Below, one piece after another: positions 3,001 to 19,748 of a DNA stretch of 64,000 nucleotides (its first letter is position 1; each line of letters opens with the position of its first letter). Both the position numbers and the translations under genes were made by a program. Under the pieces are notes generated by a model, which saw only the letters and a program-made list of their open reading frames with translations, made no database searches and had not been told where the DNA came from. The DNA lies in assembly GCF_000336575.1 (NCBI RefSeq), contig NZ_AOPO01000009.1:1-64000 (forward strand). Reading direction: 5' to 3'. Source of the DNA: Vreelandella titanicae BH1 (GTDB lineage Bacteria; Pseudomonadota; Gammaproteobacteria; Pseudomonadales; Halomonadaceae).

Positions 3001-6000
3001 TGGCTTCAACGCAACGACGGGCGAAGCAACTTATGCGATCTCGTCTCCAGCTGGAGGTTGGAATGAAAATGGTAGTTATACGGTCTGGGTGGCTCAGGGG
3101 GCGGTCTCAGATGCCTCAGAGAATGCCAACCTTGTCGATTCAACGCCATCGACGAGCTTCATGATCGACTTTGATGAGGGCAGCCCGCTTGGCGGTTATG
3201 CCCCGGGTGATGACCTGGACGAAGATGGCACTGCCAATCAGGCGGATGAAGATATTGATGGTGATGGTGATGCCAATGTAGATGATGTCTTTGCTTATGA
3301 CGCCCAAAATGGGCAGCCTTTGGCCGACGGCGAAAGCATACGCCTTAATTTCGAAGTAAACGGCACTCCCTATCAGAACGGTTTCACCGGGGTTATGGCC
3401 AGTTCTGATGTGGCATTTCAGGACGAAGATACCGGCGCCGGCATCGTTGCCGATAATCAACTCAGGGTCACGACAACGAGTGGTGATACGGGGTCTGCAA
3501 ATACGCCACAGAATGATTATCACTTGGGCATTATTCGTGATGGAGGCTTCATCCTGGAGTCCGTGGTGGATAACCCCTTTGCTTCGGCTCCCGGTAGTTA
3601 TTCGCAGCTAGGGCTGGCGGTGAGTGTGAACAGTAATGATTTTGCCAAGCTGGTATTCGGCAGTGTTGGTCAGGACATTGAGTTTTCCTCGCGCGACAAC
3701 AACGCCGAAACCAAACTTGGGGCTGACTTCCCAGATGGTTATGGCTTTGGTGATTTTGCAAAAGCGAAGCTAGTACTCGATGTCAGTGTCAATAACGTCG
3801 GCAATACTATGGCGACGGCGACAGTCACTTTACTGGACGCATCAGGTGAACCTTTACCGGGTAATGCCAGCGTGACCATTAGCGGGTTGGAACTCACCGG
3901 AGCCCTTAAGGAGGCGATACTAGACCCTGCAGCTTCGGTCGGCGTAGGGATTACCCACACGCATGGTGCGGCGGAAGCCTTTACCGCTGCCTATGACTAC
4001 TTCGAGGTAAGTGCCAAGGAAGACACTAGCACTCCTTTGCCGGTGCCGGCGACCGAGATCGAAGAAATTTTTGCTGGTGCTAACCTCGAATTATCGGATA
4101 GCTATGATCAAGGTGATGTTGGCTCTGCATTGGTCACTGTGACTCCTGGCGGGAATGACGTACAGAGTTCCAATTACGGCAGTAACTCGTTCCAGGTGCA
4201 AAATACCGGAGATAAGAAGATCGCCGCGGTTTTCTTTGATGTGACGACAGCCCTCTATGGCGATAGCGTGTTTGATCCCGATGGCAAAGGTGGGGATGCG
4301 ACAGCCAAGGAGTGGGCGATCAACAGTGCCGGTAACACCGGGGCAATTCAGCCTGTGGGGTCGTCTGGCTACGAGCATTATTTCCTGCCGGGAATCGATC
4401 CTGAGCCTGAGAATTCAGATAATAATGGTGGTTACCGTGGGGCCTTGGTGAAATTTTCGGCCACTGCCAACGGTGGATTTACTAACGGTGAAACAGTTGG
4501 TTTCAGTGGTGATATGGATCCTAACTCGATTGCTGGCTTTACCAAATCCAGTGTCGATACGGGATCGATTCCCTTCTGGGATGTGGGGGGGATCTCAGGG
4601 GCGGAACTTATCGGCTCCAATGTGTATATCAAGTTTACTGATGGTAGTACTGCCAGCGGACAATTGATGAGCGATGGCAGCCAGGCTGGAGCACAAGTGC
4701 TGGTGAGTGAAACGCCACCTAACCTAGTTGCCGAATTGAGTGTCAACGGGCTTTCTGCCGGTAGTCAAGGGACCTACGGTGGTGAAGTACCTTCGGTAAT
4801 TGTTAGCGGGCCAGCTGGTGAATGGGTGCGAGTCGTCATGACTAAAGGGCACCAGCCAGTAACCAATAATCAGGATGGCATTGCCGATACTGTAAATGCC
4901 CGTCTAGCGGATAAGAATTTCCCTGCTAACAATGCTGCAGAGTTCCAGTTTGTAGATGTACAGCTGGGCGCCAGTGGCACAGCCGATGTTTCGCAGGAGT
5001 TTACCTATGGGGATTTCCTGAACGACACCTCCAGCTTCGATGGAGATGACACACTTCCGCTTGGTTTTGTTGCATCCGTCATTGATAACCCGAATACCTC
5101 TGATGGCTTGGGCTTGGGGCCGGTATCGCAGCCGATCTATCTAATTTCGAATGGTACGCCTGTTGTGGATGGCGATACGACAATCCCGTCGGAAGGTTAT
5201 TACCTTATGGAGGACAGTCGTCTTAAAGTACAGTTTGAGGATATAAATGGACCTGGTGGAGTAAACCCTCCTGGCAAATGGCAGTTCTTCGATGAGGCAG
5301 ACGAAAATGGTAACCAGGCGAACTTCCAGGGAGTTGGTTACTATCTCTGGGGCGATGAGGACAGTGAGGCTCTTAATGGGCCGCAGGCAGAACTGACCTA
5401 TACATTCGTCATTCCTGAGTCGGCAGCAGGGGAGTTTACCTTGCGAGTTCGGGGGACACGGGATCCAGGTGGGGCCAGCGATGCCCAGAATGATGTCTGG
5501 GTGAAGATAGATGACAATGCTGAAGAGCTTCTCGTTAGTAATGTCAATGCGATAGATAATAGTGGGTTTATAAAGCTGTATGGTAATGCAACAGGCGATT
5601 TTGGCTTCGCGAACTTTATCGATAGCACCTCGGATTCGGTACCGAATTTCCCAGCGGAGTTTGTGCTTGACGCCGGTGTTCATACGATTACTTTCGCAGG
5701 CCGTTCCGAAGGCTTCCATATTGACTTCTTTGAGCTTTACCAAGGCAATGCGCCAAGTATAAACGCGACGAACTCTACCTTTATACTTAGTGGTGATACC
5801 GAGCCTTTCGTTAATAACCCTCTTGAAGATCAGACGATCGAAGCTGAAGATGAGTTTTTCTTCGAGATTCCTGATGATACCTTTCGCGATCTGGATGGCG
5901 ATATATTGACCTATGAAGCCCTAAACATACCTGATGGAGTCTTCTTCGACGCACAAACGAAGACTTTCTCGGGGAGCCCTAGTGCAGGGGTAGGTAATTA

Positions 6001-6757
6001 CGCGCTGGAAGTTCAGGTAACCGATGAAGATGGTGCTACTGCGACAGCAGGTTTTGACTTGGTGGTGGTGCCAGAGGATCAAAACGAGCCAGATACTTAC
6101 TTTGTCGCCATGGTCGAGAGTGCTAATGGCGACATTGAACAGGGCTCATCTCTGTCTAGTCCTGATTTGGAGATAGGCTCATATGTTGTCGGTATTCAAT
6201 TTACCGTGCCTGATAATATTAATCTTGATGATAGTGAAACTATTGATAGTGCGATTATCAGCTGGGTATCTGATAGGACGCATTCTGCCAACTCGACGAT
6301 GACTTTCTCCGTAGAGAACTCACTCAACGGAGCGGGCTTCGGCTCAGTCACTAACCGAAATTATCTCTCTGAAGAGGAAGTGTGGCAGTCTACAGGTACA
6401 TGGCAGGATGGTGAAAATATAACTGTAGGTATTAACTTGGCAAATCAACTTAATTCGCTTATTGCTCAGGAGGGGCTTAACTCAGGAGATCTGATCACGG
6501 TCAAAATAGAAGGAACTGGTGGGACTCGCTTTGTCGAGGCGGCTGGAGGAGACCGGACTGCTCCAACGCTTGCTATTACTGTGGCTGATAACGCCAGTGC
6601 TAGCCAACTAAGTAATAATGCAACCCTTCTGTTCGAGAGTAACTCTATAAGTGATATGCCGGGAGATGATGAGTTTGGAACTCTCAATCCCTCATCAATG
6701 AGCCAAGAAGTTGGCCTAGTTGGTATTAATGATGAGTCAACGGTAGGAAGTTTTTGA
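2..6757 (+). CDS. Giant modular secreted/surface repeat protein (5' end outside window)
   Basis: The frame is open from base 2, so the real start and any signal peptide lie upstream; about 2251 residues are visible. Modules by residue, counted from base 2: Calx-beta-like repeats at about 1-83 (cut), 84-190, 341-450 and 599-705, with the recurring core LTASEGFSGEVAL. Two CBM6/35-like domains lie at about 196-335 and 454-593 (start VRLQAEDF, end ARIDYIEF). Two related unnamed beta domains follow at about 706-935 and 1110-1340. A Big-like domain (about 943-1053) precedes a calcium-binding thrombospondin-3-like stretch (about 1068-1100, DIDGDGDANVDD). Another CBM-like region (about 1738-1917) precedes a cadherin/He_PIG-like domain (about 1937-2025). 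No RTX nonapeptides and no LPxTG are visible. A cell-surface or matrix adhesin, or a polysaccharide-binding exoprotein, is the best inference; no catalytic domain was recognised. Confidence 0.85.
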   Translation, partial: LTASEGFSGEVALDLTINGTSEPRTVVFTGGIGSLTVDVANDDQANGPEQVSVILAGIADEAFAIDPAATTATGTVTEDDVGQTVIGITDADPMVENGDEGTTTLSFGLTASEGFSGEVALSVDIDGVVESRTVVFTGGVGSLTVDVANDDQANGPEQVSVILNGIADEAFAIDPAAATATGTVAEDDDVAPTTPVRLQAEDFTTATNYTVENIGAADEGQGIRLQGGESGTASYALAGAVAAGTYTVIVGYFDENDGESTAQLSIGNAQGQSFSGDWIFDNDATSGNAAQASSFRTVTFENVTVGDDATLALSATAATLEYARIDYIEFVPAGIVEPPAPTLIGISDADPMVESGDEGATTLSFGLTASEGFSGEVALDLTINGTSEPRAVVFTGGVGSLTVDVANDDQANGPEQVSVILNGIADEAFAIDPAAATATGTVTEDDEVAPTTPVRLQAEDFTTATNYTVENIGAADEGQGIRLQGGESGTASYALAGAVAAGTYTVIVGYFDENDGESTAQLSIGNAQGQSFSGDWIFDNDATSGNAAQASSFRTVTFENVTVGDDATLALSATAATLEYARIDYIEFVPAGIVEPPAPTLIGISDADPMVESGDEGATTLSFGLTASEGFSGEVALDLTINGTSEPRTVVFTGGVGSLTVDVANDDQANGPEQVSVILAGIADEAFAIDPAAATAMGTVTEDDITSTDPATINLEFDEGETLQGLFDGVTEGSGTDTEETGTAEIINGNLVISASEGDAGGSNNANDNYYTNVSGGDGFTAELKFGNPFPSLPAQYSQLGLNISLSQDEYLKVTFGNVGGGQIEYSYELGGSQSKQTFSLPPSISFAQIADVVVAIEASVDGGMASFSGTMTFLDASGQSLGDTALPALLLPDGPLNTAITSAGEEFGVGVTQTSFGSGPVFVANYDYLRIQQQGEESTDDNDKPVATIAILQPVNTDAELTVVVTYADASGIATETLDNSDIALMLDGVPVAATISFDGFNATTGEATYAISSPAGGWNENGSYTVWVAQGAVSDASENANLVDSTPSTSFMIDFDEGSPLGGYAPGDDLDEDGTANQADEDIDGDGDANVDDVFAYDAQNGQPLADGESIRLNFEVNGTPYQNGFTGVMASSDVAFQDEDTGAGIVADNQLRVTTTSGDTGSANTPQNDYHLGIIRDGGFILESVVDNPFASAPGSYSQLGLAVSVNSNDFAKLVFGSVGQDIEFSSRDNNAETKLGADFPDGYGFGDFAKAKLVLDVSVNNVGNTMATATVTLLDASGEPLPGNASVTISGLELTGALKEAILDPAASVGVGITHTHGAAEAFTAAYDYFEVSAKEDTSTPLPVPATEIEEIFAGANLELSDSYDQGDVGSALVTVTPGGNDVQSSNYGSNSFQVQNTGDKKIAAVFFDVTTALYGDSVFDPDGKGGDATAKEWAINSAGNTGAIQPVGSSGYEHYFLPGIDPEPENSDNNGGYRGALVKFSATANGGFTNGETVGFSGDMDPNSIAGFTKSSVDTGSIPFWDVGGISGAELIGSNVYIKFTDGSTASGQLMSDGSQAGAQVLVSETPPNLVAELSVNGLSAGSQGTYGGEVPSVIVSGPAGEWVRVVMTKGHQPVTNNQDGIADTVNARLADKNFPANNAAEFQFVDVQLGASGTADVSQEFTYGDFLNDTSSFDGDDTLPLGFVASVIDNPNTSDGLGLGPVSQPIYLISNGTPVVDGDTTIPSEGYYLMEDSRLKVQFEDINGPGGVNPPGKWQFFDEADENGNQANFQGVGYYLWGDEDSEALNGPQAELTYTFVIPESAAGEFTLRVRGTRDPGGASDAQNDVWVKIDDNAEELLVSNVNAIDNSGFIKLYGNATGDFGFANFIDSTSDSVPNFPAEFVLDAGVHTITFAGRSEGFHIDFFELYQGNAPSINATNSTFILSGDTEPFVNNPLEDQTIEAEDEFFFEIPDDTFRDLDGDILTYEALNIPDGVFFDAQTKTFSGSPSAGVGNYALEVQVTDEDGATATAGFDLVVVPEDQNEPDTYFVAMVESANGDIEQGSSLSSPDLEIGSYVVGIQFTVPDNINLDDSETIDSAIISWVSDRTHSANSTMTFSVENSLNGAGFGSVTNRNYLSEEEVWQSTGTWQDGENITVGINLANQLNSLIAQEGLNSGDLITVKIEGTGGTRFVEAAGGDRTAPTLAITVADNASASQLSNNATLLFESNSISDMPGDDEFGTLNPSSMSQEVGLVGINDESTVGSF
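255..2112 (+). repeat. 774-bp tandem repeat inside the giant gene (about 2.4 copies)
   Basis: Sequence at position n recurs at n+774 from about 255-1338 to 1029-2112. For example the CBM start GTACGCCT appears at 588 and 1362, and GATCCGATGGTCGAAAG appears near 1051 and 1825. Each unit encodes one Calx-beta-like plus one CBM6/35-like module (258 codons). Copies 2 and 3 are almost identical in DNA, including silent sites, while the first Calx module is more diverged. A second relation with a 324-bp offset links base 2 onward to base 326 onward, where two Calx modules abut without a CBM between them. Such repeats are prone to copy-number change and to assembly collapse. Confidence 0.9.
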
Positions 6758-6781
6758 TAAGTTAGTAGCTTAGTAGCATGA

Positions 6782-6810
6782 GGGGCTGGTTTCACCAGCC
6801 CCTTTTTTTT
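6782..6810 (+). terminator. Rho-independent terminator after the giant gene
   Basis: A 9-bp perfect stem (GGGGCTGGT/ACCAGCCCC) with loop TTC is followed directly by eight T residues. It sits 25 bases after the stop codon and separates the giant gene from the SapC-family gene. Confidence 0.95.
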
Positions 6811-6830
6811 GAAGAACAGTAGGTGCACTC

Positions 6831-7601
6831 ATGCTTGAATGGATCGCCATATCACGTACTCAGCATGTCAATAAACGATTCTGGTCACGTCAAGGCTATT
6901 TCTTTTCTGCAGAATATCATTTGGCTCCCATTCTTCTGAAAGAGCTAGCCAGTCTGGTACCCCATTATGTATTGGGCTTTATTTACCAGAATGAGGGTTA
7001 TCACCCAGTAGCAGTACTGGGATTTAACGAATGCAACTTGTATTTGCATCGCGATGGTCGTTGGCTGTGTGATTACGTGCCCGCGTCGCTGCGAGAGTAT
7101 CCGTTTACCTTGGCAAAGGCCGAGACGAATAAAAAAGTATTCTGCATAGAACGGCAGCACCTCACTGACGATTTGAACGCCGAGCCACTTTTTGGAGGGA
7201 AGGGAAATCTTGCTAATCAAGTCGAACAAACACTGAGTTTTCTCAAACAAAGCGAGTGTAACCGACACTTAACGACTGCTGCCTGCCAAGTATTAAGTGA
7301 AGCAGGCCTAATCGAGCCTTGGCCTCTACAGCTGACCTGGGGTGACAAGCAGGCGTCACTGCATATGCAGGGTTTACATTGTATTAATCAGCAAGCTCTG
7401 AACCAATTAGGAGAAGGAACGTTAGCTGATTTACATCGCCGTGGTGCCTTGCCGTTAGCCTACGCTCAACTATTCTCAATGAGTCAAGTAATTCAGTTAA
7501 CAGAACGAGTGAAATTCCATGCGCAAGAGCAGGCTAAACAGTCAAAGCTTGAAAATGATATTGATCTATTTTACGAAGACGGAGATGAGTTTAAATTTTG
7601 A
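6831..7601 (+). CDS. SapC family protein
   Basis: A 256-residue protein without a signal peptide. The N-terminal half carries the features of the SapC family (Pfam SapC, named after a Campylobacter fetus S-layer-linked gene): a PVAVLGF segment near residue 60, the DGRWLCDYVPASLREYPF stretch near residue 75, and a basal GL-containing C-terminal half. The biochemical role of SapC proteins is not established, and in many proteobacteria they lie next to very large repeat or cadherin-like exoproteins, as here. It follows the giant gene by 73 bp but is separated by a strong terminator, so it needs its own promoter or read-through. The C-terminus is acidic (LFYEDGDEFKF). Confidence 0.75.
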   Translation: MLEWIAISRTQHVNKRFWSRQGYFFSAEYHLAPILLKELASLVPHYVLGFIYQNEGYHPVAVLGFNECNLYLHRDGRWLCDYVPASLREYPFTLAKAETNKKVFCIERQHLTDDLNAEPLFGGKGNLANQVEQTLSFLKQSECNRHLTTAACQVLSEAGLIEPWPLQLTWGDKQASLHMQGLHCINQQALNQLGEGTLADLHRRGALPLAYAQLFSMSQVIQLTERVKFHAQEQAKQSKLENDIDLFYEDGDEFKF

Positions 7602-7778
7602 TTTTATTACGTAGTTGTTGGCTTCATTCTATCGAGCATCGAATTCAGCACCTCGTAACAATAAATAGCACTTAGTTAATGTGTACCTGTAATTTGATAA
7701 TCGCTGAGCTTTCTCCTGGATTAATGTATCCTCTAGGCTTGATCATCGTTCGACTGACTATTATCAAGGAAGCTCACC

Positions 7779-8267
7779 ATGTTTTTCTCTAAACGCGCTG
7801 CCCTCGGGCCACTTATGGTTATGTTGTCACTGCTGCCACCCACGCTATTCGCCCAGGATGCTCATATTGGCAGCGTGCGTACCGAGTTCAAGCTGCTTGG
7901 TCCGAACAACACCATTGAAGTGGAGCGCTTCGATGACCCGGACGTTCAGGGTATCTCCTGTTATCTCTCCTACTCACAGATTGGTGGGATCTCTGGTGCG
8001 GTGGGGCTTGCTGAGGAGGCTAGTGAGGCGAGCGTGGCGTGTCGGCAGACAGGGGAGGTTGTCTTCGATCCTGCTGAAGTAGAGGAGCAAGAGGTGATTT
8101 TTAGTCAACGCCGCTCGGCGCTTTTCAAGAATATGCGCGTCGTTCGCATGCATGACGCCGAAACCCAGACCTTTGTGTACCTGACGTATAGCACCAAGCT
8201 GGTCGATGGCTCGCCTAAAAACGCGATTACGGCTGTCCACTACGGTGAGCTAGGAGGCGGGCAATAA
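7779..8267 (+). CDS. creA: CreA family periplasmic protein
   Basis: A 162-residue protein with a cleavable signal peptide (hydrophobic core, LFA-QD cleavage near residue 25). It matches the CreA family along its length: IGSVRTEFKLLGPN, VERFDDPDVQGISCYLSY, the EASEASVACRQTG segment and the VDGSPKNAITAV end. Two conserved cysteines (SCYL and ACRQ) could form a disulfide. CreA's function is unknown, even in E. coli where it neighbours creBCD; no creBCD genes are here. The start has a good ribosome-binding site (AAGGAAGC). A short inverted repeat CTTGAT/ATCAAG (7738-7743 and 7763-7768) lies just upstream. The 3' end converges on the CAP gene with only 15 bp between. Confidence 0.85.
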   Translation: MFFSKRAALGPLMVMLSLLPPTLFAQDAHIGSVRTEFKLLGPNNTIEVERFDDPDVQGISCYLSYSQIGGISGAVGLAEEASEASVACRQTGEVVFDPAEVEEQEVIFSQRRSALFKNMRVVRMHDAETQTFVYLTYSTKLVDGSPKNAITAVHYGELGGGQ

Positions 8268-8282
8268 CTGACTCTTGGGCGC

Positions 8283-8858
8283 TTAGCGCGGGTTGCCTAA
8301 CGTTTGTGTCCAGTAGGTTGAGTAGCGCGACTCCGAATCCTCGGCTTTTGCCATGCCCATTTCGGTAAAGGCGTCATTCATGATGTTGCGGCAGTGGCCG
8401 GGGCTGTCTAGCCAGCCTTCCACTACGGCAGAGACCGAGGTGTAGCCAGCGGCGACATTCTCACCCACGGCTTGCCACACGTAATCCTGGTTACCCACCC
8501 GCTGCTCGATACCTGCGCCCTCCGGGTCGGTATGGCTAAAGTAGTCGTTCTCGGCCATGTCCTGGGAGTGGCTTTTGGCCGCTGCTTCCAGCTTGCAGCT
8601 CCATGCTAACGATTCTACGGCCTCAAACTGCTGGTCACCGCATTGTCTCGCTTGGCTACGCGCCTCGTTGATTTGAGACAGCATTGCCCGCTGCTGATCG
8701 TTGAGTTCGCATTCGCCTTGACTGGGAGCATTATCACTCTGGGACTGATCATTGGCCCATGAGGTGGATGAACCCATGAGCAGCATGGTAACGGTCAGGC
8801 CGTAAAGCGCCCCGGCAGCGGGGCGCTTGGGAAGGAAGTTACCCACCGAACTTTTCAT
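8283..8858 (-). CDS. Secreted CAP-domain (SCP/YkwD-like) protein
   Basis: About 191 residues from the chosen start at 8858, which gives a signal peptide (hydrophobic LTVTMLLMGSSTSWA). The longer frame to 8954 would add a basic tail lying wholly inside the upstream gene and is unlikely. The mature part is a CAP domain: an INEAR helix, AAAKSHSQDMAENDYFSH with the CAP histidine, the GENVAAGY motif, and WLDSPGHCRNIM with the second conserved histidine. Bacterial CAP proteins are secreted and mostly of unknown function. It overlaps the end of the PNPOx-like gene by 20 bp, which suggests co-transcription. Confidence 0.85.
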   Translation of the reverse strand: MKSSVGNFLPKRPAAGALYGLTVTMLLMGSSTSWANDQSQSDNAPSQGECELNDQQRAMLSQINEARSQARQCGDQQFEAVESLAWSCKLEAAAKSHSQDMAENDYFSHTDPEGAGIEQRVGNQDYVWQAVGENVAAGYTSVSAVVEGWLDSPGHCRNIMNDAFTEMGMAKAEDSESRYSTYWTQTLGNPR

Positions 8859-10310: not shown

Positions 10311-10592
10311 CTAGCGTTTACCCGCTTTTGTTTTAATTTTGGGAGGAGTGTCGGAAAGCTCTTTCTCTTTAGTGCGCCATTTAATCTTTACTTCCACCTC
10401 CTGCTTATCGCCTTCATCACTGGCGCGCAGGGAGACTTGCAGCAACTGCTGGGGGGAAAGTACCAGCTCACCTTCACTTTCCTGGAAGGCTAACTCGCCT
10501 TTATTGATCGCATTTGCCAGGGTAATCAGTAACTCTTGGGTTGACTGACGATCCAGCAGCGAATCGTGACTGAATTTCGTTTTTGACTTCAT
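10311..10592 (-). CDS. Amphi-Trp domain small protein (GAK cassette)
   Basis: A 93-residue soluble, highly charged protein. It has the pattern of the amphi-Trp domain named in NCBI/TIGRFAM models: an N-terminal SRQSTQELL-like helix (residues 13-30, ending NAINKGE), two amphipathic beta strands, and a late conserved tryptophan in VEVKIKW (W72). The tail is lysine-rich (IKTKAGKR). Its start overlaps the phosphatase stop by 4 bp (ATGA), so it is translationally coupled as the last gene of the cassette. No catalytic motif is visible. A target, carrier or scaffold role for the neighbouring kinase and ligase is inference. Confidence 0.8.
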   Translation of the reverse strand: MKSKTKFSHDSLLDRQSTQELLITLANAINKGELAFQESEGELVLSPQQLLQVSLRASDEGDKQEVEVKIKWRTKEKELSDTPPKIKTKAGKR

Positions 10593-11941
10593 TTAGCGGG
10601 CTCCACCAGTTTTCCTTTGCGGCCGGGCTTGAACACTTTTGCCTGAGGGTAATCGCAGCTAAGGCCGATCACCCCACGGTTTTTGTCGATTAACGTTACC
10701 CCTACACCGTAGCCATCGAGCCCCTCGTTTTTACGCGAGTGAGCGTCCAGGGTGATATCGGCTTCGATATGGATAAGCCCGTTTTTGAGCGTGACCCGCT
10801 GGCCAAAGTGTTGGTTGATATGGCCGTGAACCAGCACCTGAATGCCTGCCCGCCGGGCAATATAGGCGCCGCGAGGCGTAAGGGGGAGATCGGCTTTACG
10901 GTATTTGGTTCTAAAGGTATTGGCCAAAGAGCCATAATAAAAACTGAATAGGTTTTGGTGCATTAGGTTTTTTTTGAAAGCCCGATTGACATGTTTTACG
11001 CCGTACTTGGCCAGCAGTTCGGCCATATGATCATCGAGGCCGGCATGCAGAAACAGAAAGGAACCGCGCTTTTTAACCAACTGCATGCGGCGGAAAAACC
11101 AGCTAAATTCCCCCGATTTGTTAAGAAATAGCGAACGACACTTCATCGCGGCGGCGTAGACTTGGGTGAGCGACAGGCCGTTTTTTGCACAGTGCGCCTC
11201 GAAGCTCTGCGCCTTGGTGGTCATCTTGCTGATTTCACGCTCTATACCCTCGGGGGTGAGAAACCCGGCGGCATAGAAGGGGAAGTTTTCGAACCAGTCG
11301 TTGCCTGGAAACAGCGCCTGTCGGCACGCCTGCTCGGACGGTAATCCTTTGTCCCACTGGGTATCGGCTAGGTATTGATCGAATACCTCTTTAAACAGCG
11401 GTATGACCTTCTTGCCCATGCGCACAAAGAGATGTTGGCTACCGGCGTCAGTGTCGCGTTCCAACGATAGCAGCCCCATCAGCAAGCGGAGATCATGGTT
11501 ACCGGCCAGCAGAGTGATATCTGCTTTGAGGCGGTATAAATGGGCCAGGCTGCGCAGCATCATCAGATTGCTGGGGCCTTTGTCCAGGCAGTCTCCGCCC
11601 ACCACGATTTCGGCTTTTTTGCCGAATTTCGTCAGTGCATATTCACATAGGTGGGAGCCTTCGCGTTCGATCACGCCTGCAGCAATTAGCGAGGCTTCAA
11701 ATGCCTCGGCGTCCGCATGGGGATCTGAGATGAATGCCACTGGCTTTTTGGGCCAGGCGAAGCCTTTTTTTCGCGAGCGCTTAACAAAGGTGCTTAGCGC
11801 CTCATCGTGATTGACCGAAGTCGCGTCATCGGGCCAGGGCGCCCACTCTGTCGGAAGGCGCGTCAAGATGGCGTTGTGATACGGTTGTTTGCTTACCTTT
11901 GGAATAACATTGCACGCGGTCATAGAAGCCATCTTATTCAT
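10589..11941 (-). CDS. Metallophosphoesterase of PPP type (GAK cassette)
   Basis: A 450-residue calcineurin-like phosphoesterase. The full metal-site set of the PPP family is present: ISDPHAD (D73, H75), VGGDCLDKG (D117, D120), LLAGNHDL (N148, H149), FLHAGLDDH (H299) and VHGHINQHFG (H372, H374). The GNHD in place of GNHE and the long helical insert between residues 155 and 290 set it apart from classical Ser/Thr phosphatases. It could dephosphorylate a protein or a small molecule. The gene starts 9 bp after the histidine phosphatase stop and overlaps the amphi-Trp gene, placing it in the cassette operon. An ATG codon 3 residues in (MASM) is an alternative start. Confidence 0.85.
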   Translation of the reverse strand: MNKMASMTACNVIPKVSKQPYHNAILTRLPTEWAPWPDDATSVNHDEALSTFVKRSRKKGFAWPKKPVAFISDPHADAEAFEASLIAAGVIEREGSHLCEYALTKFGKKAEIVVGGDCLDKGPSNLMMLRSLAHLYRLKADITLLAGNHDLRLLMGLLSLERDTDAGSQHLFVRMGKKVIPLFKEVFDQYLADTQWDKGLPSEQACRQALFPGNDWFENFPFYAAGFLTPEGIEREISKMTTKAQSFEAHCAKNGLSLTQVYAAAMKCRSLFLNKSGEFSWFFRRMQLVKKRGSFLFLHAGLDDHMAELLAKYGVKHVNRAFKKNLMHQNLFSFYYGSLANTFRTKYRKADLPLTPRGAYIARRAGIQVLVHGHINQHFGQRVTLKNGLIHIEADITLDAHSRKNEGLDGYGVGVTLIDKNRGVIGLSCDYPQAKVFKPGRKGKLVEPAK

Positions 11942-11950
11942 CGCTATCGT

Positions 11951-12679
11951 CTAATCGAGAGGGTCTGCTGGCTGGCGCTGTTTCCAGTTTCCGTACAGTC
12001 GGTGCCAGCCTTGGTTATGCCGCTCGAAAACGACCGGATGACCATGAAACATACTTAACCGTTTAATATCGCTGAAGGGTATGACATTTAAATGATAGCT
12101 TGCGTGGCGAATGGAGGCGCCGTGGCCCACCACCAGCTGTAGTTGATTTAGGTGATTGAGTTGCTTGAGCTGATTCCGTTGCTTCGTTGTCTCAGGTCGC
12201 GGCTGTGGCTCTAAAAGTGCTTGTAAATGAGCAGCGACCCTTGCACCTGCCTCCAACAGCGATTCCGCGCCGTCGAAGGGCAGTCTGAAATCGCTGGCTG
12301 ATTTCCAGCCCTTAGGTAAGGGCTCAAGGCGAGGGTCGAGGGTGACGATCCGTTCTATTTCCTGAATGCTCAGATTGGCCAGCGCCCCAACGCTGCGTTC
12401 ACAAAGGGCCGAAAAGCTGCGCGAACGGGGTGGCTCCGCAAACAGCGGCGTTAGCTCTTCGCGGAAGATTTCAGCCGTTTGCCAGGCTCTTAGCAGCGTC
12501 GAGCAGTGTATCTCCGCATTGAGCTGATAGCCTGAAGTGGCTAGCCACGCGCCGAACCGACGCGCCTGCTCTCGAACGTCTTCCGCACCCTTTTCCGTGA
12601 GCGGGTAGGGCTGCAGGGCGCTGGGTGTATCCGCCAGTTGAGAATATTCACCGTGCCGAATCAGCGCCAGTGCCACCAT
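11951..12679 (-). CDS. Histidine phosphatase family protein (GAK cassette)
   Basis: A 242-residue branch of the phosphoglycerate mutase-like histidine phosphatase superfamily. The catalytic RHGEYSQL motif is at residues 8-15 with nucleophile H9, followed by a LLRAWQTAE arginine motif and the second histidine in VVGHGASIRH. SixA, CobC and phosphoglycerate mutases share this fold; the substrate here is unknown. Its ATG shares bases with the stop codon of the HprK-related kinase gene (one-base overlap). A second phosphatase of a different fold next to a kinase is notable. A glutamine/asparagine-rich patch (QRNQLKQLNHLNQLQ) precedes the second motif. Confidence 0.85.
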   Translation of the reverse strand: MVALALIRHGEYSQLADTPSALQPYPLTEKGAEDVREQARRFGAWLATSGYQLNAEIHCSTLLRAWQTAEIFREELTPLFAEPPRSRSFSALCERSVGALANLSIQEIERIVTLDPRLEPLPKGWKSASDFRLPFDGAESLLEAGARVAAHLQALLEPQPRPETTKQRNQLKQLNHLNQLQLVVGHGASIRHASYHLNVIPFSDIKRLSMFHGHPVVFERHNQGWHRLYGNWKQRQPADPLD

Positions 12680-13788
12680 CAGAGAATGCCTTTGGCTTGG
12701 AGTAGCGCAATGGCACGCTCAAAATCGATGGTACCGGTGAGGCGCAGCACTTCAACGCTCGCTAGATGTTCGGCATAGATCTTGGCAGATTGGGCTTGCT
12801 CGGTGGGAAAGTGGCCATCCACGTGCTGAAAAAATGGCCCTGGGCTTTTGCGCAAGCCCTCAAGCGCCTCAGGTGTTTGGGTGATATCCACGCTACTCTG
12901 GGCTGTCGGGGCGGTAGCGTCTAATGCCCAGTCCAGCAGTATTAGGTGTTTGAGCGTGCCGGAGAGAGCGGTTTTACCCTCGCCATAGGCGTTAGGAATC
13001 AACACATCGTACTTCTGCTCAATATCCCATAGCTGGCTTTTGGGCATGTCGGTAAATCGGTCGCGCTCTTCAGTAGGCAGTATGTCGATTAATCGCTCAG
13101 AATGGATCAGCGTGCCCGGGTTAACGCGAGGATGTTTGGCGACACCGAGAACGCTTACCCAGCCGTTTTCGGGCTTAAACAGAATCCGGTCATTGGAGAG
13201 AAAGCGCGCCGTTGCGGTTTCCAGCGCTTTCAGCATTAGCGTCGATTTACCACCACCGGAGCTGGCGGCAATGGCCGTGACGTTGCCATCGATATCAAAG
13301 GCCGAGGCGTGGCCGAGCAGGTAACCATCGCGTTGATGATGATTGAGGAACTGGTTGTTAATAAAGTTGATGACTTGCGATGAGTGCTTGTTTAACTCGC
13401 CAATCGCAGCTGGCGCCGTTAACGATTGGAACAGCGCCATCCCCGTGCGTACTTTATGAATCCAGCGCCCTTGAGGAGTATCCACGTAGGCCTCTTTCAG
13501 CCCCAGAGCGCTGGTTTTGGCCCGTGTTACCGCTGTCCACTCGCGGCCGCTGGTATCCGCTTGCTGATCCAACAGCCATACCGGTAGTTCTGGCTGGTCA
13601 AGGGTATGGACTTCTTTCGGGAGCAAACCAGACGCCGTTAAACCAGCATAGTAAACCTCAAGATGGTCAAGAATGGCTGGGTGGTCGGCCAGCACGCGAA
13701 TTGTTAAACCATTGAACGTCAGCGGTAACGCATAGGTACAGGCGGCCTTAGCCCCGTTGATTTGCTGATTATCAAAAAGGTTGATCAT
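12679..13788 (-). CDS. HprK-related kinase B (GAK cassette)
   Basis: A 369-residue protein related to the C-terminal kinase domain of HPr kinase/phosphorylase. The P-loop is AASSGGGKST at residues 174-183, preceded by the typical HASAFDIDGNV strand, and FLSNDRILF (197-205) fits the second nucleotide/metal motif. The first glycine of the usual Walker A is replaced by alanine. The N-terminal 130 residues are not the HPr kinase N domain. There is no HPr or PTS gene nearby, so a PTS role is unlikely. NCBI/TIGRFAM names this family HprK-related kinase B and ties it to the GAK system. It overlaps the ATP-grasp gene by 4 bp. Which protein or metabolite it phosphorylates is unknown. Confidence 0.85.
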   Translation of the reverse strand: MINLFDNQQINGAKAACTYALPLTFNGLTIRVLADHPAILDHLEVYYAGLTASGLLPKEVHTLDQPELPVWLLDQQADTSGREWTAVTRAKTSALGLKEAYVDTPQGRWIHKVRTGMALFQSLTAPAAIGELNKHSSQVINFINNQFLNHHQRDGYLLGHASAFDIDGNVTAIAASSGGGKSTLMLKALETATARFLSNDRILFKPENGWVSVLGVAKHPRVNPGTLIHSERLIDILPTEERDRFTDMPKSQLWDIEQKYDVLIPNAYGEGKTALSGTLKHLILLDWALDATAPTAQSSVDITQTPEALEGLRKSPGPFFQHVDGHFPTEQAQSAKIYAEHLASVEVLRLTGTIDFERAIALLQAKGIL

Positions 13789-14711
13789 TCACCTGCCTCT
13801 GCTGTCTCTGTCTCTGCTGTCTCGGCCTCAAGCTGGCTAAGCACATAATCACACAGCTTCTCAGCAGCATCGATACCACAGCCTTTTTTCGCGCCGCTAA
13901 ATCCACCGAAGGCCGAGACCTCAAAGACCACGGGCCCTTCATCGGTCAATGCAATGTCTACAGTGGTAAAGCTTAGATCGAAGCATGACTGGGCTTTTAG
14001 GCCAAGTTCAATCAGCTCAGGGCTTGCATCAAAGGTTCGATATTTGCCCCCGCTGTGTATCGTTGTATTCCACGATTTGTCATCGCCGACACGGGCATAG
14101 GTGCACAGGTACTTGCCGCCTAGAAATACCATGCCTAGATCTTGACCGCCCAGGTTGACGAATTTCTGAAGGTAAAAAAGGCCATGCTTAGCCTTAAATT
14201 TATTCAGTATTTGGGTGTTGGCTTTAACACCATCTGCCGCTTTTAACACCACCATGCCGCGGGCTTTGGTTGAGTAGAGCGGTTTTAGGATCAACTTCCC
14301 GAACGTTTGGATAGCCTCCAGCGCTGCATCAGTGCTCTCGGTTACTCGGGTCGCGGGCAGCGGGATACCGCCGGATGCCAGGGCGGCGGTGCCCTCAAGA
14401 CGATTAATCAGGCGCCCCACCTGGCTTGGCGAGCTGAAACAGCGCACCCCGTCCGCTTCAAGGGTTTTGAGCATGCGCAGTCGGTCGTCGGCGGCAGGGG
14501 AGTAGGTTTCGCTTATTTTTTTGATGATCACCCCGTCAAGCGTGTTGAGCAAGGTGTCCCGATAACGTAACTCGCCGGTTTCAAGTTCCAGCACTACGTC
14601 AGCCATATCGATAACGCAGCGGTAGCCGGTGCGCTGTTCCAAATGATTCGCCAATACTTCGGTTGACCATTTGCCAGGTATCCCAATGACCGCAATTCGC
14701 TTATTAATCAC
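13785..14711 (-). CDS. ATP-grasp enzyme, GAK system type
   Basis: A 308-residue RimK-like ATP-grasp protein. ATP-grasp landmarks are LILKPLYSTKARGM (ATP lysine K143 and the glycine-rich loop), LFYLQKFV (adenine-contact segment near 178-185), and VDIALTDEGPVVFEVSAFG with magnesium ligands D252 and E264. The position normally occupied by Asn in the ExN motif is Ser here. RimK-like enzymes ligate a carboxylate to an amine; the acceptor here is unknown. The C-terminal tail is a run of Glu/Thr/Ala (AETAETETAEAGE). It overlaps genes on both sides (4 bp and 8 bp). This is the G (grasp) component of the cassette. Confidence 0.85.
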   Translation of the reverse strand: MINKRIAVIGIPGKWSTEVLANHLEQRTGYRCVIDMADVVLELETGELRYRDTLLNTLDGVIIKKISETYSPAADDRLRMLKTLEADGVRCFSSPSQVGRLINRLEGTAALASGGIPLPATRVTESTDAALEAIQTFGKLILKPLYSTKARGMVVLKAADGVKANTQILNKFKAKHGLFYLQKFVNLGGQDLGMVFLGGKYLCTYARVGDDKSWNTTIHSGGKYRTFDASPELIELGLKAQSCFDLSFTTVDIALTDEGPVVFEVSAFGGFSGAKKGCGIDAAEKLCDYVLSQLEAETAETETAEAGE

Positions 14712-16323
14712 TAAAAATATCCTCTAGGGGAAGCCTGTACTTCTCTATTTTCTCAGGGGTTAGAAGTGTTATGGCCTCTAGCAGGTAGCTCGCTCTAAGG
14801 GCGAGTCGGTTGGCAAAACGTTTGTCGTAGATAAAGCGCGTAGAGGTGGCAAAGGAGCGCCCCAGCGCGATGGCTAGCCGCGCATCAAAGCTTACATCGT
14901 TATTCTCTTTGGCGAACCGGCGCGCAAACTGATAGAGCTGTCTGATCAATCCCATTAGTTCGGCTCTAGGGGCCGCATCCATAATGGGCAGCCGATAAAT
15001 TGACGCCATCAGAACGGATAAATCCTGAACATAATCAGAATAGGAGGCGCGATGTAGGTCGATAAAGTAGATGCGATTTTTGAGTTCGTCATAGATGAGG
15101 TTGTCGACGTTAAAGTCGCCGTGGATCAGCACGGAAAATGGCGCCCTAAGCTGACGCTCTAGGGGCTCTACGCGATCGATCAACTCATCAAAACTGGGGC
15201 GGGGCAGTCCGCAAATGGTTTGGTGTGTATGAAACAGTGTCGGGTGCGTGTGACGGGTTTCGGGCATGCGTTTACGCAACTGCTGCATATACTCGGGCTG
15301 AGCCGGCTCGTTGGTACGTGATGTCTTCCAGATCTTTCTCAACGTCCGTTGGAGTGTGTGGGCAAGTTGCTTGGCGGATTTCCACTGGTCGTTTAACAGT
15401 AGTGACTCAAGCGTTCGACCGGGGAGGTGTTCGATCACCATTGAACCCAGTTCATCCCCCTGCTCGACATGGTGCGAGAGAACCGTTGGAGCCACCTTAG
15501 GATAGACCCGTTTCCATTGATCTACCCCGTAAAGTTCTTCAATGACTTTCTGGCTTTCACCCTCTTTGTAGACTGCCATCATCTTGCCAGAGGTGGCGTG
15601 CTCGGCTCTCAGTGTGGCAATGGTGCTGCCGCTGCGGGTAAGCGCAAGCCGCTCAACGGTAAAGTCGTCATTCTGGGCGGTCATCGCGTGGGCGGCATTT
15701 TTCAGTTGCTTGTAGTTTTGCAAGCGTACGGCAGGGCCGAAGTTGGCGGCGAGTAGGGCGTCGGCAAGCTCCGAAAGCAGATGGATCATACGGTTAAGCT
15801 GAAAATCCACCACGGCGCTGTTACGCATGCCTGAAGCGTCCTGCTCAAAAGCAGTGGTTAAGCGGGCGGTTATTTTGGGAATTCGGCGTCCAATTTTCAG
15901 GCCTTGGCGAGTGTTTGCATCATCGATATTAATGATCACCAGCTTCAATGATTTACCCACCAATCGAATGAGCTTGGCGTACTCTTTTCGCGATTTATCG
16001 GGAAGCTGCTTTAGGGCCTTGATGGCGGTGAATTCAAGGCAGGATTGGCCTAACTGGTCAAGTAGTCGGGCTAAGCGCTCAAGGGATTTGGATTGCTGAA
16101 AACCCTGCCCATCGACTTTGCGTCGCTGCACATCCATGGCGACGGCGAGCTCAACTTTCTCCACCAGCGTGTTCCTATAGCCTTTGCGATTGATCAGGCG
16201 CCGAGAAACGGATTCACTTGGCTGAGTCACATAAACTTCAACTAACTCGAAGTGATTTTCAACTTCGAATCGTAGAAAATAGAAATGCTCCAAAATCGAC
16301 GTATTGATACGCTGCCTCACCAA
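14704..16323 (-). CDS. PhoU-like domain fused to APH-type kinase (GAK cassette)
   Basis: A 539-residue two-part protein. Residues about 1-200 are helical and resemble PhoU-type bundles (LEFTAIKALKQLPDKSRKEY region and RMIHLLSELADALLA). Residues about 220-530 form an aminoglycoside/choline-kinase-like fold: the nucleotide lobe has AVYKEGESQKV (K253 as the likely ATP lysine), the catalytic loop is HGDFNVDN (401-408) and the metal motif is IDLHR (421-425). Antibiotic resistance is unlikely given the fusion and the neighbours; a protein or metabolite kinase is more likely. It is the first gene of the minus-strand cassette, divergent from the CofD-like gene. Confidence 0.8.
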   Translation of the reverse strand: MVRQRINTSILEHFYFLRFEVENHFELVEVYVTQPSESVSRRLINRKGYRNTLVEKVELAVAMDVQRRKVDGQGFQQSKSLERLARLLDQLGQSCLEFTAIKALKQLPDKSRKEYAKLIRLVGKSLKLVIINIDDANTRQGLKIGRRIPKITARLTTAFEQDASGMRNSAVVDFQLNRMIHLLSELADALLAANFGPAVRLQNYKQLKNAAHAMTAQNDDFTVERLALTRSGSTIATLRAEHATSGKMMAVYKEGESQKVIEELYGVDQWKRVYPKVAPTVLSHHVEQGDELGSMVIEHLPGRTLESLLLNDQWKSAKQLAHTLQRTLRKIWKTSRTNEPAQPEYMQQLRKRMPETRHTHPTLFHTHQTICGLPRPSFDELIDRVEPLERQLRAPFSVLIHGDFNVDNLIYDELKNRIYFIDLHRASYSDYVQDLSVLMASIYRLPIMDAAPRAELMGLIRQLYQFARRFAKENNDVSFDARLAIALGRSFATSTRFIYDKRFANRLALRASYLLEAITLLTPEKIEKYRLPLEDIFSD

Positions 16324-16422
16324 GATAACGTGCGCTTAGGTGGTTACTGCTTCTGAGAGTCAACAGTATAAGTAACAGTGCCATCGTTTACGTTACATGT
16401 TTCTTACAGTTCAAAGAGTTGT
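16324..16422. promoter_or_regulatory. Divergent promoter region of the GAK cassette
   Basis: This 99-bp gap must hold the start signals for both arms of the cassette. Three copies of the half-site GTTAC/GTAAC lie at 16343-16347, 16372-16376 and 16392-16396, the first two and last two in opposite orientation. A TATAAG at 16366-16371 is a possible -10 for the rightward gene. No known regulator motif was recognised. Confidence 0.4.
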
Positions 16423-17658
16423 ATGAAAAAAAGACGTTTTATCGGTACCCGAATGTGCCTGCCCCGTGAGATTGGCAAGGGGTTGGATCTGCGTCTGGCC
16501 AGATACCGAAAAGCCCCCGAGTTAGGGCCGAAAATACTCTTCTTTAGTGGCGGCACGGCACTAAGACATTTTTCTGAGGTGTTGACGGACTATACCCATA
16601 ACTCCATTCATCTGGTTACCCCTTTTGATTCAGGAGGCAGCTCGGCAGAGTTACGCCGGGCCTTCGCGATGCCTGCGGTGGGCGACCTAAGGGCACGCCT
16701 GCTTGCTCTGGCTGATGATTCTGTCACCGGGCACCCAGAGGTGGCTGCGCTTTTTTCACATCGGCTATCGGCAAGGGAGGGGGAAGACGCGACGGCAAAG
16801 ACAGCACTTGAGCAAAGTCTGCAGGCCCTTGTCAGTGCTAAGCATCCGCTGCTCAAGGCAATTGCTGAGCCCATGCGGTCGCTGATCCAGAGCTATATCG
16901 CCGCATTCTACAAACATATGCCCAAAGATTTTAACCTCGCTGGTGCCAGTGTGGGGAACCTGATCTTGACCGGCGGTTATCTGATTCATGATCGCTCTCT
17001 GGATCCGATCGCCTTTCTCTTTGGTCAACTGATCAAGACCCGCGGCACCGTTCGGACAACGACGGATGCCAACCTTCAACTGGAGGTATTGTTAGAGAGC
17101 GGTCGAACGATTATTGGCCAACACTGCTTTACCGGCAAAGAGACGGCTCAAATCGATTCGCCTATCAGAGCGATAAAATTATCAGGCGAGGCGGACGATA
17201 TCGATACCTTGGATGCCTCCAAAGTATGTAAAGAGACCCGTAAGCTCATTGATTCGGCAGAGCTGTTGGTTTTCCCGCCGGGCAGTTTTTATAGCAGTGT
17301 CATTGCCAACCTGCTGCCCAAGGGGGTTGATAAGGCATTGGCTAAAAACCCGTCACCCAAAGTGTATGTGCCCAGCCTGGGCACTGATCTTGAAACGCTT
17401 GGCATGACGTTGGTGGATCAGGTGCAAGTGCTCAATGAGCATTTGTCTGGCACACTCGAACCCTTATCGTCTAAGCGGTCTTCAATCGATTTTTTACTGT
17501 TTGATTCGCAGCTTCTGAGTGTTTCGGCTGATCAGATTGAGACGCTACGCGATGAAATGGGTATTCAAATTATTGATCTAGACCTTGCGCCGGAGAATGC
17601 TGATACCCAACGTTACGATGACGTTAAGCTGGCTGAAGCGCTGCTTGGGTTGACCTGA
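16423..17658 (+). CDS. CofD-like protein, GAK system type
   Basis: About 411 residues from the chosen start at 16423 (MKKRRF, preceded by AAAGAG); an upstream ATG at 16378 would add 15 residues. Motifs of the CofD/YvcK superfamily are clear: FFSGGTALRHFS (nucleotide-sugar-like binding loop), PFDSGGSSAELRRAF, a SVGNLILTGG segment near residue 185, and PPGSFYSSVIANLLP near residue 300. True CofD makes the F420 precursor, but no other F420 gene is present and NCBI/TIGRFAM has a separate CofD-related GAK family. It lies divergent to the rest of the cassette. Only 16 bp separate it from the next gene cdhR, so some read-through is possible. Confidence 0.85.
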   Translation: MKKRRFIGTRMCLPREIGKGLDLRLARYRKAPELGPKILFFSGGTALRHFSEVLTDYTHNSIHLVTPFDSGGSSAELRRAFAMPAVGDLRARLLALADDSVTGHPEVAALFSHRLSAREGEDATAKTALEQSLQALVSAKHPLLKAIAEPMRSLIQSYIAAFYKHMPKDFNLAGASVGNLILTGGYLIHDRSLDPIAFLFGQLIKTRGTVRTTTDANLQLEVLLESGRTIIGQHCFTGKETAQIDSPIRAIKLSGEADDIDTLDASKVCKETRKLIDSAELLVFPPGSFYSSVIANLLPKGVDKALAKNPSPKVYVPSLGTDLETLGMTLVDQVQVLNEHLSGTLEPLSSKRSSIDFLLFDSQLLSVSADQIETLRDEMGIQIIDLDLAPENADTQRYDDVKLAEALLGLT

Positions 17659-17674
17659 CACCGATATACTCTAA

Positions 17675-18682
17675 ATGACCTTGGGCATTGCTATGCGTCT
17701 TAGTTACCAGGGCCCGCTGCCTGAAATGGTGGGGTTTTTGCTACTGCCGCAGTATTCGATGATGGCCTTCTTTGCGGCGGTGGAGCCGCTGCGAATTGCC
17801 AACCGCATTGCCCATCGACCGCTGTTCGACTGGACGTTGATTAGCGCTGATGGCGGGCCGGTGACGGCGTCGAACGGTATGACCTTGATGGTGGATCACG
17901 CAACGGCGGATGTTCACCATTTACCCTCGCTGGCGGTATGCAGCGGTTTTACCCCCGAGGCGCATCTTACCCGGCCGTTAATGGCCTGGCTTCATCAGTT
18001 GGATCAAGCAGGCTGCTGTTTGGGTGGCATTGATACCGGAGCGTTTCTGCTCGCCGCCACCGGGTTGTTAAAGCACGAGCGGGTGGCTCTGCACTGGGAG
18101 AGTCTGCCCGCGTTTCGTGAGCGCTTTCCGGGTATTGACACTACCGATGAGCTTTACGAGTTGGGCGAGCGGCGCTTCTCCTGTGCGGGTGGGGCAGCGG
18201 CGATGGATATGGCGCTGGAAGTGATTGCCCGGCGGCATGGCGCAAAGTTGGCTATTGATGTCTCCGAGCAACTGATCCATGACCGAATTCGCACCCGCAG
18301 CGATCAGCAGCGCATGGCGTTGGTGAAGCGCTTAGGCACGCATAACCGGCGTGTTGTGGAGGCGGTTGCGCTGATGGAGCAGAACCTGGAAGAACCGCTC
18401 CCCCTTGACGAGATAGCCAGCCAGGTAGAGGTATCGGTGCGCCAGTTGCAGCGTCTGTTTGAGCAGGAGCTAAACGTGACCCCGCGTCAATGGTATTTGC
18501 AACTGCGTGTTAAGCGCGCCCGGCGGCTGCTGGCCGAGACTGACTTAGCGGTATTAGAAGTGGGCGTGGCCTGTGGGTTTAGTTCGTCGTCGAGCTTTGC
18601 GCGTACGTTTCGTGCGCATTACGGCTACTCGCCTCGGCAGGTGCGTTCTGCCATAGCGGAGAAGGCCTTTAAAGCGCAATGA
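17675..18682 (+). CDS. cdhR: GlxA/GbdR-family AraC regulator, probable CdhR
   Basis: A 335-residue regulator. Residues about 20-190 form a DJ-1/PfpI-like ligand domain with the GGIDTGAFLLA motif typical of the glycine betaine/carnitine regulators GbdR and CdhR. Residues about 230-330 are an AraC-type double helix-turn-helix (PLDEIASQVEVSVRQLQRLF, then VGVACGFSSSSSFARTFRAHYG). It lies next to caiX and opposite cdhCAB, the arrangement known around the Pseudomonas aeruginosa carnitine regulator, so activation by carnitine is inferred. Met at 17693 is an alternative start. The phased TGTC repeats just downstream (18684-18718) are the likely target. Confidence 0.85.
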   Translation: MTLGIAMRLSYQGPLPEMVGFLLLPQYSMMAFFAAVEPLRIANRIAHRPLFDWTLISADGGPVTASNGMTLMVDHATADVHHLPSLAVCSGFTPEAHLTRPLMAWLHQLDQAGCCLGGIDTGAFLLAATGLLKHERVALHWESLPAFRERFPGIDTTDELYELGERRFSCAGGAAAMDMALEVIARRHGAKLAIDVSEQLIHDRIRTRSDQQRMALVKRLGTHNRRVVEAVALMEQNLEEPLPLDEIASQVEVSVRQLQRLFEQELNVTPRQWYLQLRVKRARRLLAETDLAVLEVGVACGFSSSSSFARTFRAHYGYSPRQVRSAIAEKAFKAQ

Positions 18683-18683
18683 G

Positions 18684-18718
18684 TGTCGCTTAATGTCTGA
18701 TAAGCGTCGCTTAGTGTC
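18684..18718 (+). promoter_or_regulatory. Phased TGTC repeats upstream of caiX (putative CdhR operator)
   Basis: Two direct copies of YGTCGCTTARTGTC start at 18684 and 18705. They place TGTC-like cores at 18684, 18694, 18705 and 18715, about one helical turn apart, as expected for an AraC-family dimer. A near-identical element (TGTCGCTTTATGAC) lies upstream of cdhC on the other strand. A possible -10 (CATACT) is at 18741-18746. Confidence 0.6.
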
Positions 18719-18779
18719 TAGTGATAGGAGAGTAGCCGCGCATACTAGCTAAACCCAACTAATAAAGAGGTTTAGCCAA

Positions 18780-19748
18780 ATGTCGGTCACAACTAGCTTC
18801 GCCACTACCAGCCCTACCACTACTAAGACGCTGTCGTTGACAGCGGGCTTTTTACTCGCTGCGTTTGCTGCCACACCCGCCATGGCAGAGCTTGATGAAC
18901 TGCGCTTTGGGGTGCCGCCGTGGCCTGGGGTGACGGTAAAGTCCGAAGTGGCGGCCCAGCTACTTGAGGCCATGGGGTACGAGACCCGGCAGCAAGATTT
19001 AGCTGTGAGCGTTATCCTCGAAGGCTTAACGCGGAACGACCTGGAAATTTATCTAGGCGGCTGGTATCCCGTTCAGACTGATATGGTCGAGCCCCTGGTG
19101 GCCGACGGTAAAGTCGAAAAAGTGGTTTCCAATATCCGCGGCGCCAATTCCGGGCTAGTGGTTCCCCAGTATGTTTACGATGCAGGCGTCACCACGGTGG
19201 CTGAGCTGGCAGAGCATCATGACCGCTTCGATGGTGAAATTCAGGGGATTGAAGCGGGCACCGGTATTAACGACGCGATTCTCAATGCCATCGATAACGA
19301 CCTTGCGGGGCTGGGCGATTGGCAGCTCCGCGAAAGCTCTACATCGGCCATGCTGGCCCAGGCTGAGCAAAAAATGGCTGATGAAGAGTGGGTGACCTTT
19401 GTCGGCTGGGAGCCTCACTGGATGAACGTGAGCTTCGATCTGGCCTATTTAGCCGATAGCGATGACGCGGGCGTGGCCTCCATTGAAAGCACGGTATGGA
19501 CAATTACCCCTGCCAGCCTGGCTGAAGAAGCGCCTGAAGTTCACCGTTTCCTTTCGCAGTATGTGATCGATATCGAAGACCAGAACGAATGGGTACACGA
19601 GTATAGCTACGAAGAGCGCCCGGCGGATGAAGTGGCTAATGAGTGGATTGGCAACAACCTGGATACCGTTGCCGAGTGGCTGGAGGGTGTTGAAACCCGC
19701 GATGGGGAATCCGCCATCGAGCAAGTTCGGGCCCAATACGGTTCTTAA
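18780..19748 (+). CDS. caiX: Carnitine/betaine ABC transporter substrate-binding protein, probable CaiX
   Basis: A 322-residue periplasmic binding protein of the glycine betaine type. A long signal peptide ends at PAMA-EL (about residue 37). The mature domain has the OpuAC/ProX-type pattern: FGVPPWPGVTVKSE near the start and the ligand-box tryptophans in YLGGWYPVQTD and FVGWEPHWMN. In Pseudomonas, CaiX is an orphan carnitine-binding protein that uses the Cbc transporter core; here too no permease or ATPase is adjacent, which fits that model. The start has a clear AAAGAGG ribosome-binding site. It ends just before a strong terminator shared with the convergent operon. Confidence 0.85.
   Translation: MSVTTSFATTSPTTTKTLSLTAGFLLAAFAATPAMAELDELRFGVPPWPGVTVKSEVAAQLLEAMGYETRQQDLAVSVILEGLTRNDLEIYLGGWYPVQTDMVEPLVADGKVEKVVSNIRGANSGLVVPQYVYDAGVTTVAELAEHHDRFDGEIQGIEAGTGINDAILNAIDNDLAGLGDWQLRESSTSAMLAQAEQKMADEEWVTFVGWEPHWMNVSFDLAYLADSDDAGVASIESTVWTITPASLAEEAPEVHRFLSQYVIDIEDQNEWVHEYSYEERPADEVANEWIGNNLDTVAEWLEGVETRDGESAIEQVRAQYGS

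Follow-up and report, generated by a model that had tools for sequence, protein, structure and literature searches.

What might be made, and unmade, by the GAK system, a gene cluster that in the literature searched is so far a name without a function? We took up this question in a 64,000-nucleotide stretch of Vreelandella titanicae BH1 (contig NZ_AOPO01000009.1, positions 1 to 64,000; hereafter the window), where seven reading frames at 10311-17658, six on the minus strand and one divergent on the plus strand, form a GAK cassette. An earlier note, made from the sequence alone, had proposed such a cassette in two divergent arms; all seven frames were found in place, and all four GAK models of NCBIfam (TIGR04354-TIGR04357), when run on the clustered genes, passed their curated cut-offs. 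The core order equals that of three annotated plasmid copies, and the window cassette is an intact member of a named but unexplained family, itself already known. Here we widen the system to a six-gene core with an optional SixA-Nudix fusion and an optional second Nudix gene, and tie it to phosphate: at roughly even odds (probability about 0.5), its sequence features point to a system under PhoB control and gated by PhoU, in which a phosphorylated small molecule is built up and broken down during phosphate starvation. Phosphate is often limiting in the marine habitats of GAK bacteria, and a phosphate link makes GAK function testable by giving a specific condition under which to search for a phenotype or product. 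Should GAK turn out to produce a novel phosphorylated messenger, bacterial phosphate signalling would gain a further level beyond PhoBR.

The phosphate link comes from Pho boxes, whose consensus is CTGTCAT-N4-CTGTCAT. One study gives their layout as two 7-bp repeats with a 4-bp spacer (PMC4563254). Counting sites with at least 11 of 14 consensus letters within 180 bp upstream and in gene orientation, we found boxes at 27 of 111 cassettes and at 22 of 1272 controls (Fisher 1.4e-18, not corrected for kinship), and shuffled sequences gave an expectation of 0.8 boxes against the 27 observed. With 300 bp and either strand allowed, the same threshold gave 29/111 cassettes versus 70/1262 other genes. 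When one random cassette was drawn per genus, a mean of 6.0 of 39 genera carried a box versus 1.2 for controls, and the contrast was weaker at a threshold of at least 12/14 (2.2 versus 0.6 genera); genus labels were assigned by hand, with Halomonas, Vreelandella and Halovibrio lumped, and kinase-less loci and four duplicates were excluded. As a positive control, pstS-like genes from 12 of the genomes, scored in the identical way, gave 7 of 24 (two entries, L185 and L189, being pieces of one gene), which puts the cassettes roughly on a par with known phosphate genes. A first positive control, in which 18 of 24 pstS-type loci scored over ~3.8 kb and both strands, was dropped as too loose, many such hits being expected by chance. 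Box positions are approximate because the reading-frame starts were called mechanically; 13 of 16 Marinomonas boxes start 67-75 bp ahead of the mechanical start.

Within the window, aligned upstream regions indicate that the kinase gene more likely begins at a conserved GTG at 16320 than at the mechanical TTG at 16323, and that the divergent CofD-like gene likely begins at ATG 16423 rather than at the mechanical GTG 16378, so that the two arms are ~100 bp apart. A Pho-box-like direct repeat, CTGTAAGAAACATGTAAC, lies upstream of the kinase operon at 16392-16409 on the minus strand with 9 of 14 consensus letters, and a -10-like TATACT lies downstream of it at 16365-16370 on the same strand. The CTGTAAGAAACATGTAAC element is shared within the window genus by 10 of 16 aligned rows (one locus counted twice) and is followed there by TTATACT; no sigma-70 promoter with a -35 was found in window 16200-16500. 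In Halomonas sp. HAL1, PhoB is reported to bind TTGACACTCCATTGTTAT in an electrophoretic mobility shift assay (PMC4563254), and by our own count this site likewise has 9 of 14 letters.

The genes behind these promoters recur as a set. Among 96 loci in which 6 kb or more of sequence flanks the grasp gene on both sides (the window included, four duplicates left out), the kinase and the ATP-grasp enzyme were present in all 96, HprK-related kinase B (HprKB) and the amphi-Trp protein in 95 each, the metallophosphatase in 93 and the histidine phosphatase in 84, and all six core genes occurred together in 84, confirming that the neighbours are conserved as a group. With the GAK profiles hit as well, neither of the two outcomes that the earlier note had named as refuting its reading came about. 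In the window, the minus-strand joints agree with the earlier description of genes that overlap or stay within 9 bp: amphi-Trp and metallophosphoesterase genes overlap by 4 bp, the latter and the histidine phosphatase gene are 9 bp apart, and the following joints overlap by 1 bp (histidine phosphatase/HprK), 4 bp (HprK/grasp) and 8 bp (grasp/kinase). Pairwise distances of the components correlate (r 0.82-0.97), as inheritance as a unit would lead one to expect, with species descent also contributing.

At the head of this operon, the gene at 14704-16320 (minus strand; Pfam APH, 60.7 bits against a cut-off of 23.2) encodes an APH-type kinase that carries a fused PhoU domain. Structure comparison places the PhoU fold, which the earlier note had also recognised and which is common to PhoU phosphate signalling proteins, at residues ~1-202, and the kinase fold at ~200-539; the fusion to a kinase sets the GAK version apart. 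The motifs H401-G-D403-F-N-x-D-N408 and I-D422-L-H are invariant in 44 copies, the roles of invariant residues being assigned, here and below, from family knowledge. We propose that in low phosphate PhoB would activate the operon from the divergent promoter, as the box statistics suggest, and that the PhoU domain, judging from the architecture, would sense phosphate status and gate the fused kinase, which by its family and catalytic residues would phosphorylate a small metabolite. On similar grounds, the ATP-grasp enzyme and the HprK-like kinase would attach further groups, and the PPP-like and histidine phosphatases, joined in relatives by SixA-Nudix and a second Nudix, would remove them; the number of removing enzymes suggests that the level is set in both directions. 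The GlmR-like CofD, an optional part, may sense a nucleotide sugar or serve as a nucleotidyl transferase, and the amphi-Trp protein may be a structural or ligand-binding partner. In sum, the cell could tune how much of a phosphorylated small molecule it holds and so match metabolism to phosphate supply. Two points favour a small-molecule substrate: metabolites are the usual targets of the APH, Nudix and MptN-like families, and the amphi-Trp protein has no fully invariant acceptor.

Several observations weigh against this phosphate-linked reading. At the threshold of at least 11/14, 84 of 111 cassettes have no box. A broader scan took in 29 loci, chiefly alphaproteobacterial and other box-poor ones, and in most of them no box lay close to the start. 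The 9/14 of the window box is reached by 422 of 1272 control regions, a third of them, and proves nothing alone. Three cassette-unlinked CofD genes (L066, L068, L069) showed no box at 10/14 or better, and phosphate-transport genes were recognised at only 4 of 118 loci (L065, L066, L067 and L142). The PhoU metal-binding motif, E(D)xxxD, is absent from the conserved columns of kinase residues 1-215 in 44 copies, and PhoU-like C-terminal slices of two symporters gave no match to the N-terminal profile. Finally, a full-text literature search, with most subscription journals outside its reach, returned no paper on GAK function, in line with the earlier note, and turned up no data on expression, phenotype or substrate.

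The remaining core enzymes bear on what the substrate might be. The ATP-grasp enzyme (13785-14711, minus strand, 308 residues, GTG start; TIGR04356, grasp_GAK, 414.1 bits against 300) belongs to the family of the RimK and MptN ligases, and its best PDB sequence match is RimK, but it falls below the cut-offs of RimK_fam (123.7 versus 143.4 bits), MptN (154.6 versus 350) and CofF (30.3 versus 300). Its E264-V-S266, invariant in 51 copies, corresponds to E-V-N in RimK, Ser266 replacing the Asn of E-x-N, and N215 and T217, kept in at least 93% of the 51 copies, stand for the Arg and Asn of the RimK substrate loop; these changes make it likely that the substrate, or even the reaction, is unlike that of RimK. 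HprKB (12679-13788, minus strand, 369 residues; TIGR04355, HprK_rel_B, 246.8 against 200) carries the hallmarks of HPr kinase/phosphorylases, a P-loop and a downstream Asp (D200), within the motifs G178-G-G-K-S-T183, N199-D-R201 and P220-R-x-N-P-G-T226, which all 50 copies keep; no HPr kinase family model scored above cut-off, and HprK_rel_A and HprK_rel_B were the sole HprK-named models at E<=0.1. The two phosphatases are unrelated, as had been claimed. The calcineurin/PPP-like metallophosphoesterase (10589-11941, minus strand, 450 residues; Pfam Metallophos 30.3 against 21.5) keeps a PPP-like set, D73-x-H75, G116-D117, G147-N148-H149-D150, H299-A-G and G373-H374, in all 51 copies, and the branch 1 histidine phosphatase (11951-12679, minus strand, 242 residues; Pfam His_Phos_1 60.6 against 21.7) keeps R8, H9, R64, E94, H186 and G187 in 50.

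These families could also be read as a system of reversible protein modification, in which the ATP-grasp enzyme would perform a RimK-like aminoacylation, the HprK- and APH-like kinases would phosphorylate proteins and both phosphatases would reverse these steps. We regard this as possible, at perhaps one chance in five: the RimK match, the standing of HprK as a protein kinase family, the PPP-like motifs of the metallophosphatase and the SixA-like N-terminal half of the optional fusion (SixA being a phospho-histidine phosphatase family) speak for it, and the RimK_fam shortfall, the altered substrate-loop positions, Ser266 in every copy and Nudix partners that mostly act on metabolites speak against it. 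So does the amphi-Trp protein (10311-10592, minus strand, 93 residues; TIGR04354, 60.7 bits against 31), the sole small protein, which lacks a fully invariant acceptor residue. In 39 aligned copies F7 and W72 are the only invariant residues, which weakens the earlier idea of a modified carrier, although H9 is retained in 36 of the 39, so phospho-histidine is still possible. Its predicted model (predicted local distance difference test score, pLDDT, 76) has a helix at 15-31 followed by four strands, and comparison with the PDB gave no confident match. Overall, the earlier interpretation stood for the cassette, the PhoU part and the phosphatases and lost ground on the carrier role, while the phosphate link and two recurrent genes had been overlooked.

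The divergent arm encodes the GAK CofD-like (YvcK/GlmR-like) protein (16423-17658, plus strand; TIGR04357, CofD_rel_GAK, 450.1 bits against 340; Pfam CofD 130 bits). It has in common with the UDP-N-acetylglucosamine (UDP-GlcNAc) protein YvcK/GlmR the motifs D-x-G-G-S-S and G-P-G-S-x-Y (PMC5482804, PMC10128056), and its D84-S-G-G-S-S89 is invariant in 26 copies. A GlmR study reports that the protein converts UTP and GlcNAc-1P to UDP-GlcNAc in vitro and that a D40A/D41A/N198A triple mutant is ~100-fold less active (PMC10128056). By our own residue matching, the first Asp and the Asn are retained (D84 in 26/26 copies, N311 in 24/26), but the second active-site Asp, D41, is replaced by Ser85 in 26/26, and the protein falls below the YvcK cut-off (TIGR01826, 126.1 versus 196 bits). 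CofD lies within 6.5 kb in 44 of 96 loci, and in five genomes (G289, G305, G030, G068, G079) it lies elsewhere. Among 398 genomes of the phylum, CofD_GAK exceeded its cut-off in six, five of these belonging to the 14 with grasp_GAK; at E<=1e-50 it was not found in nine of the 14. CofD is hence outside the invariant core, and any transfer that it may carry out cannot be an obligatory part of the system. This bears on another proposal, synthesis of a natural product or cofactor that bears an F420-like tail, for which CofD would move a phospho-group and an MptN/CofF-like ATP-grasp enzyme would attach an amino acid: the MptN match, the weak CofF match and the CofD Pfam score fit it, and its patchy CofD, the YvcK/GlmR-like CofD motifs and the unreached MptN and CofF cut-offs leave it doubtful. 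Genes for a GbdR-like regulator of the AraC type and for a choline-type ABC binding protein lie beside CofD at window 17675-19748, and these families recur there almost only in close relatives.

The optional genes prompt a comparison of their own. A SixA-Nudix fusion occurs in 25 of the 96 loci and a second Nudix in 11. The fusion gene mostly separates HprKB from the histidine phosphatase gene, and several alphaproteobacteria have it upstream on the opposite strand; immediately upstream of the kinase, a second Nudix gene was seen in 14 loci. The Nudix half of one fusion (L067) best matches human DIPP1-3, diphosphoinositol-polyphosphate hydrolases, followed by Ndx1 and Ap4A hydrolases, and in eight loci (L074, L076, L078, L079, L138, L139, L149, L154) the SixA half lacks the RHG histidine with the Nudix half conserved. 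Eukaryotic inositol pyrophosphate signalling employs the same kinds of parts: a protein-kinase-like kinase, an ATP-grasp enzyme, a DIPP-like Nudix, a histidine phosphatase and a phosphate link. By this analogy GAK might be its bacterial counterpart, the PhoU-gated kinase and ATP-grasp enzyme charging a polyol- or nucleotide-based phosphate messenger that DIPP-like Nudix and histidine phosphatases discharge. We consider this improbable, as the GAK ATP-grasp enzyme is ligase-like, nothing found points to inositol and the fusion is present in only a quarter of loci.

The cassette is found, to judge from the names, in mostly marine or salt-loving genera. In the window's family, grasp_GAK exceeds its cut-off in 20 of 151 genomes, the window genome included, and in the phylum at E<=1e-70 in 14 of 398 (13 above cut-off). 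All 14 fall among the 18 genomes with HprK_rel_B at E<=1e-10, an overlap far from chance; of the other four, G287 and G331 have matches at contig edges and G262 and G448 short ones of ~45 bits. The amphi-Trp protein was found in 21 of the 398, including 12 of the 14 GAK genomes, and in the other two (G183 and G303) the contig ends inside the cassette. Among the best 80 of 432 relatives kept in a scan of named genomes were Halomonas and kin, Marinobacter, Marinomonas, Marinobacterium, Neptunomonas, Enterovibrio, Rhodobacterales, Roseibium, Thalassospira, Thiomicrorhabdus and others. Among 72,556 plasmid records, a cassette was present on five, each with grasp and HprKB and all from marine-type Rhodobacterales genera; the three copies examined have identical core order and NCBI's GAK names, with CofD adjoining in two. 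The patchy spread and the plasmid copies would suit an anti-phage defence or other mobile conflict system, an option made very unlikely by a PADLOC scan of the seven proteins (one match at E 0.008, no passing stretch) and by Pho boxes, which are unexpected in defence systems. Least probable is arsenate tolerance at low phosphate, an idea prompted by a single locus (L065), in which a reduced cassette has arsJ with its GAPDH, and then pst genes, as neighbours.

At that locus, an ArsJ-associated GAPDH and ArsJ (6107-8352) lie between pst-phoU and a cassette reduced to kinase, grasp and metallophosphatase. Another locus (L210, 3060-4691) has a solo amphi-Trp gene facing an exopolyphosphatase-like gene (TIGR03706, 195 bits, cut-off 307). 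In Halomonas olivaria (L092), CofD, HprKB and metallophosphatase are each in two pieces, through sequencing errors or decay, and L152, labelled as the actinobacterium Enemella evansiae, holds a Rhodobacterales-like cassette, the assembly probably being contaminated or misnamed. In one Marinomonas group (L103, L104, L105, L108, L119), cobalamin-uptake-like BtuC-/BtuF-like genes, under cut-offs, follow the cassette. Elsewhere in the window, a 2241-residue open frame at 32-6757 precedes a SapC-family gene at 6831-7601, and the window's genome encodes a SixA-CHAD fusion (L084, 1408-2868).
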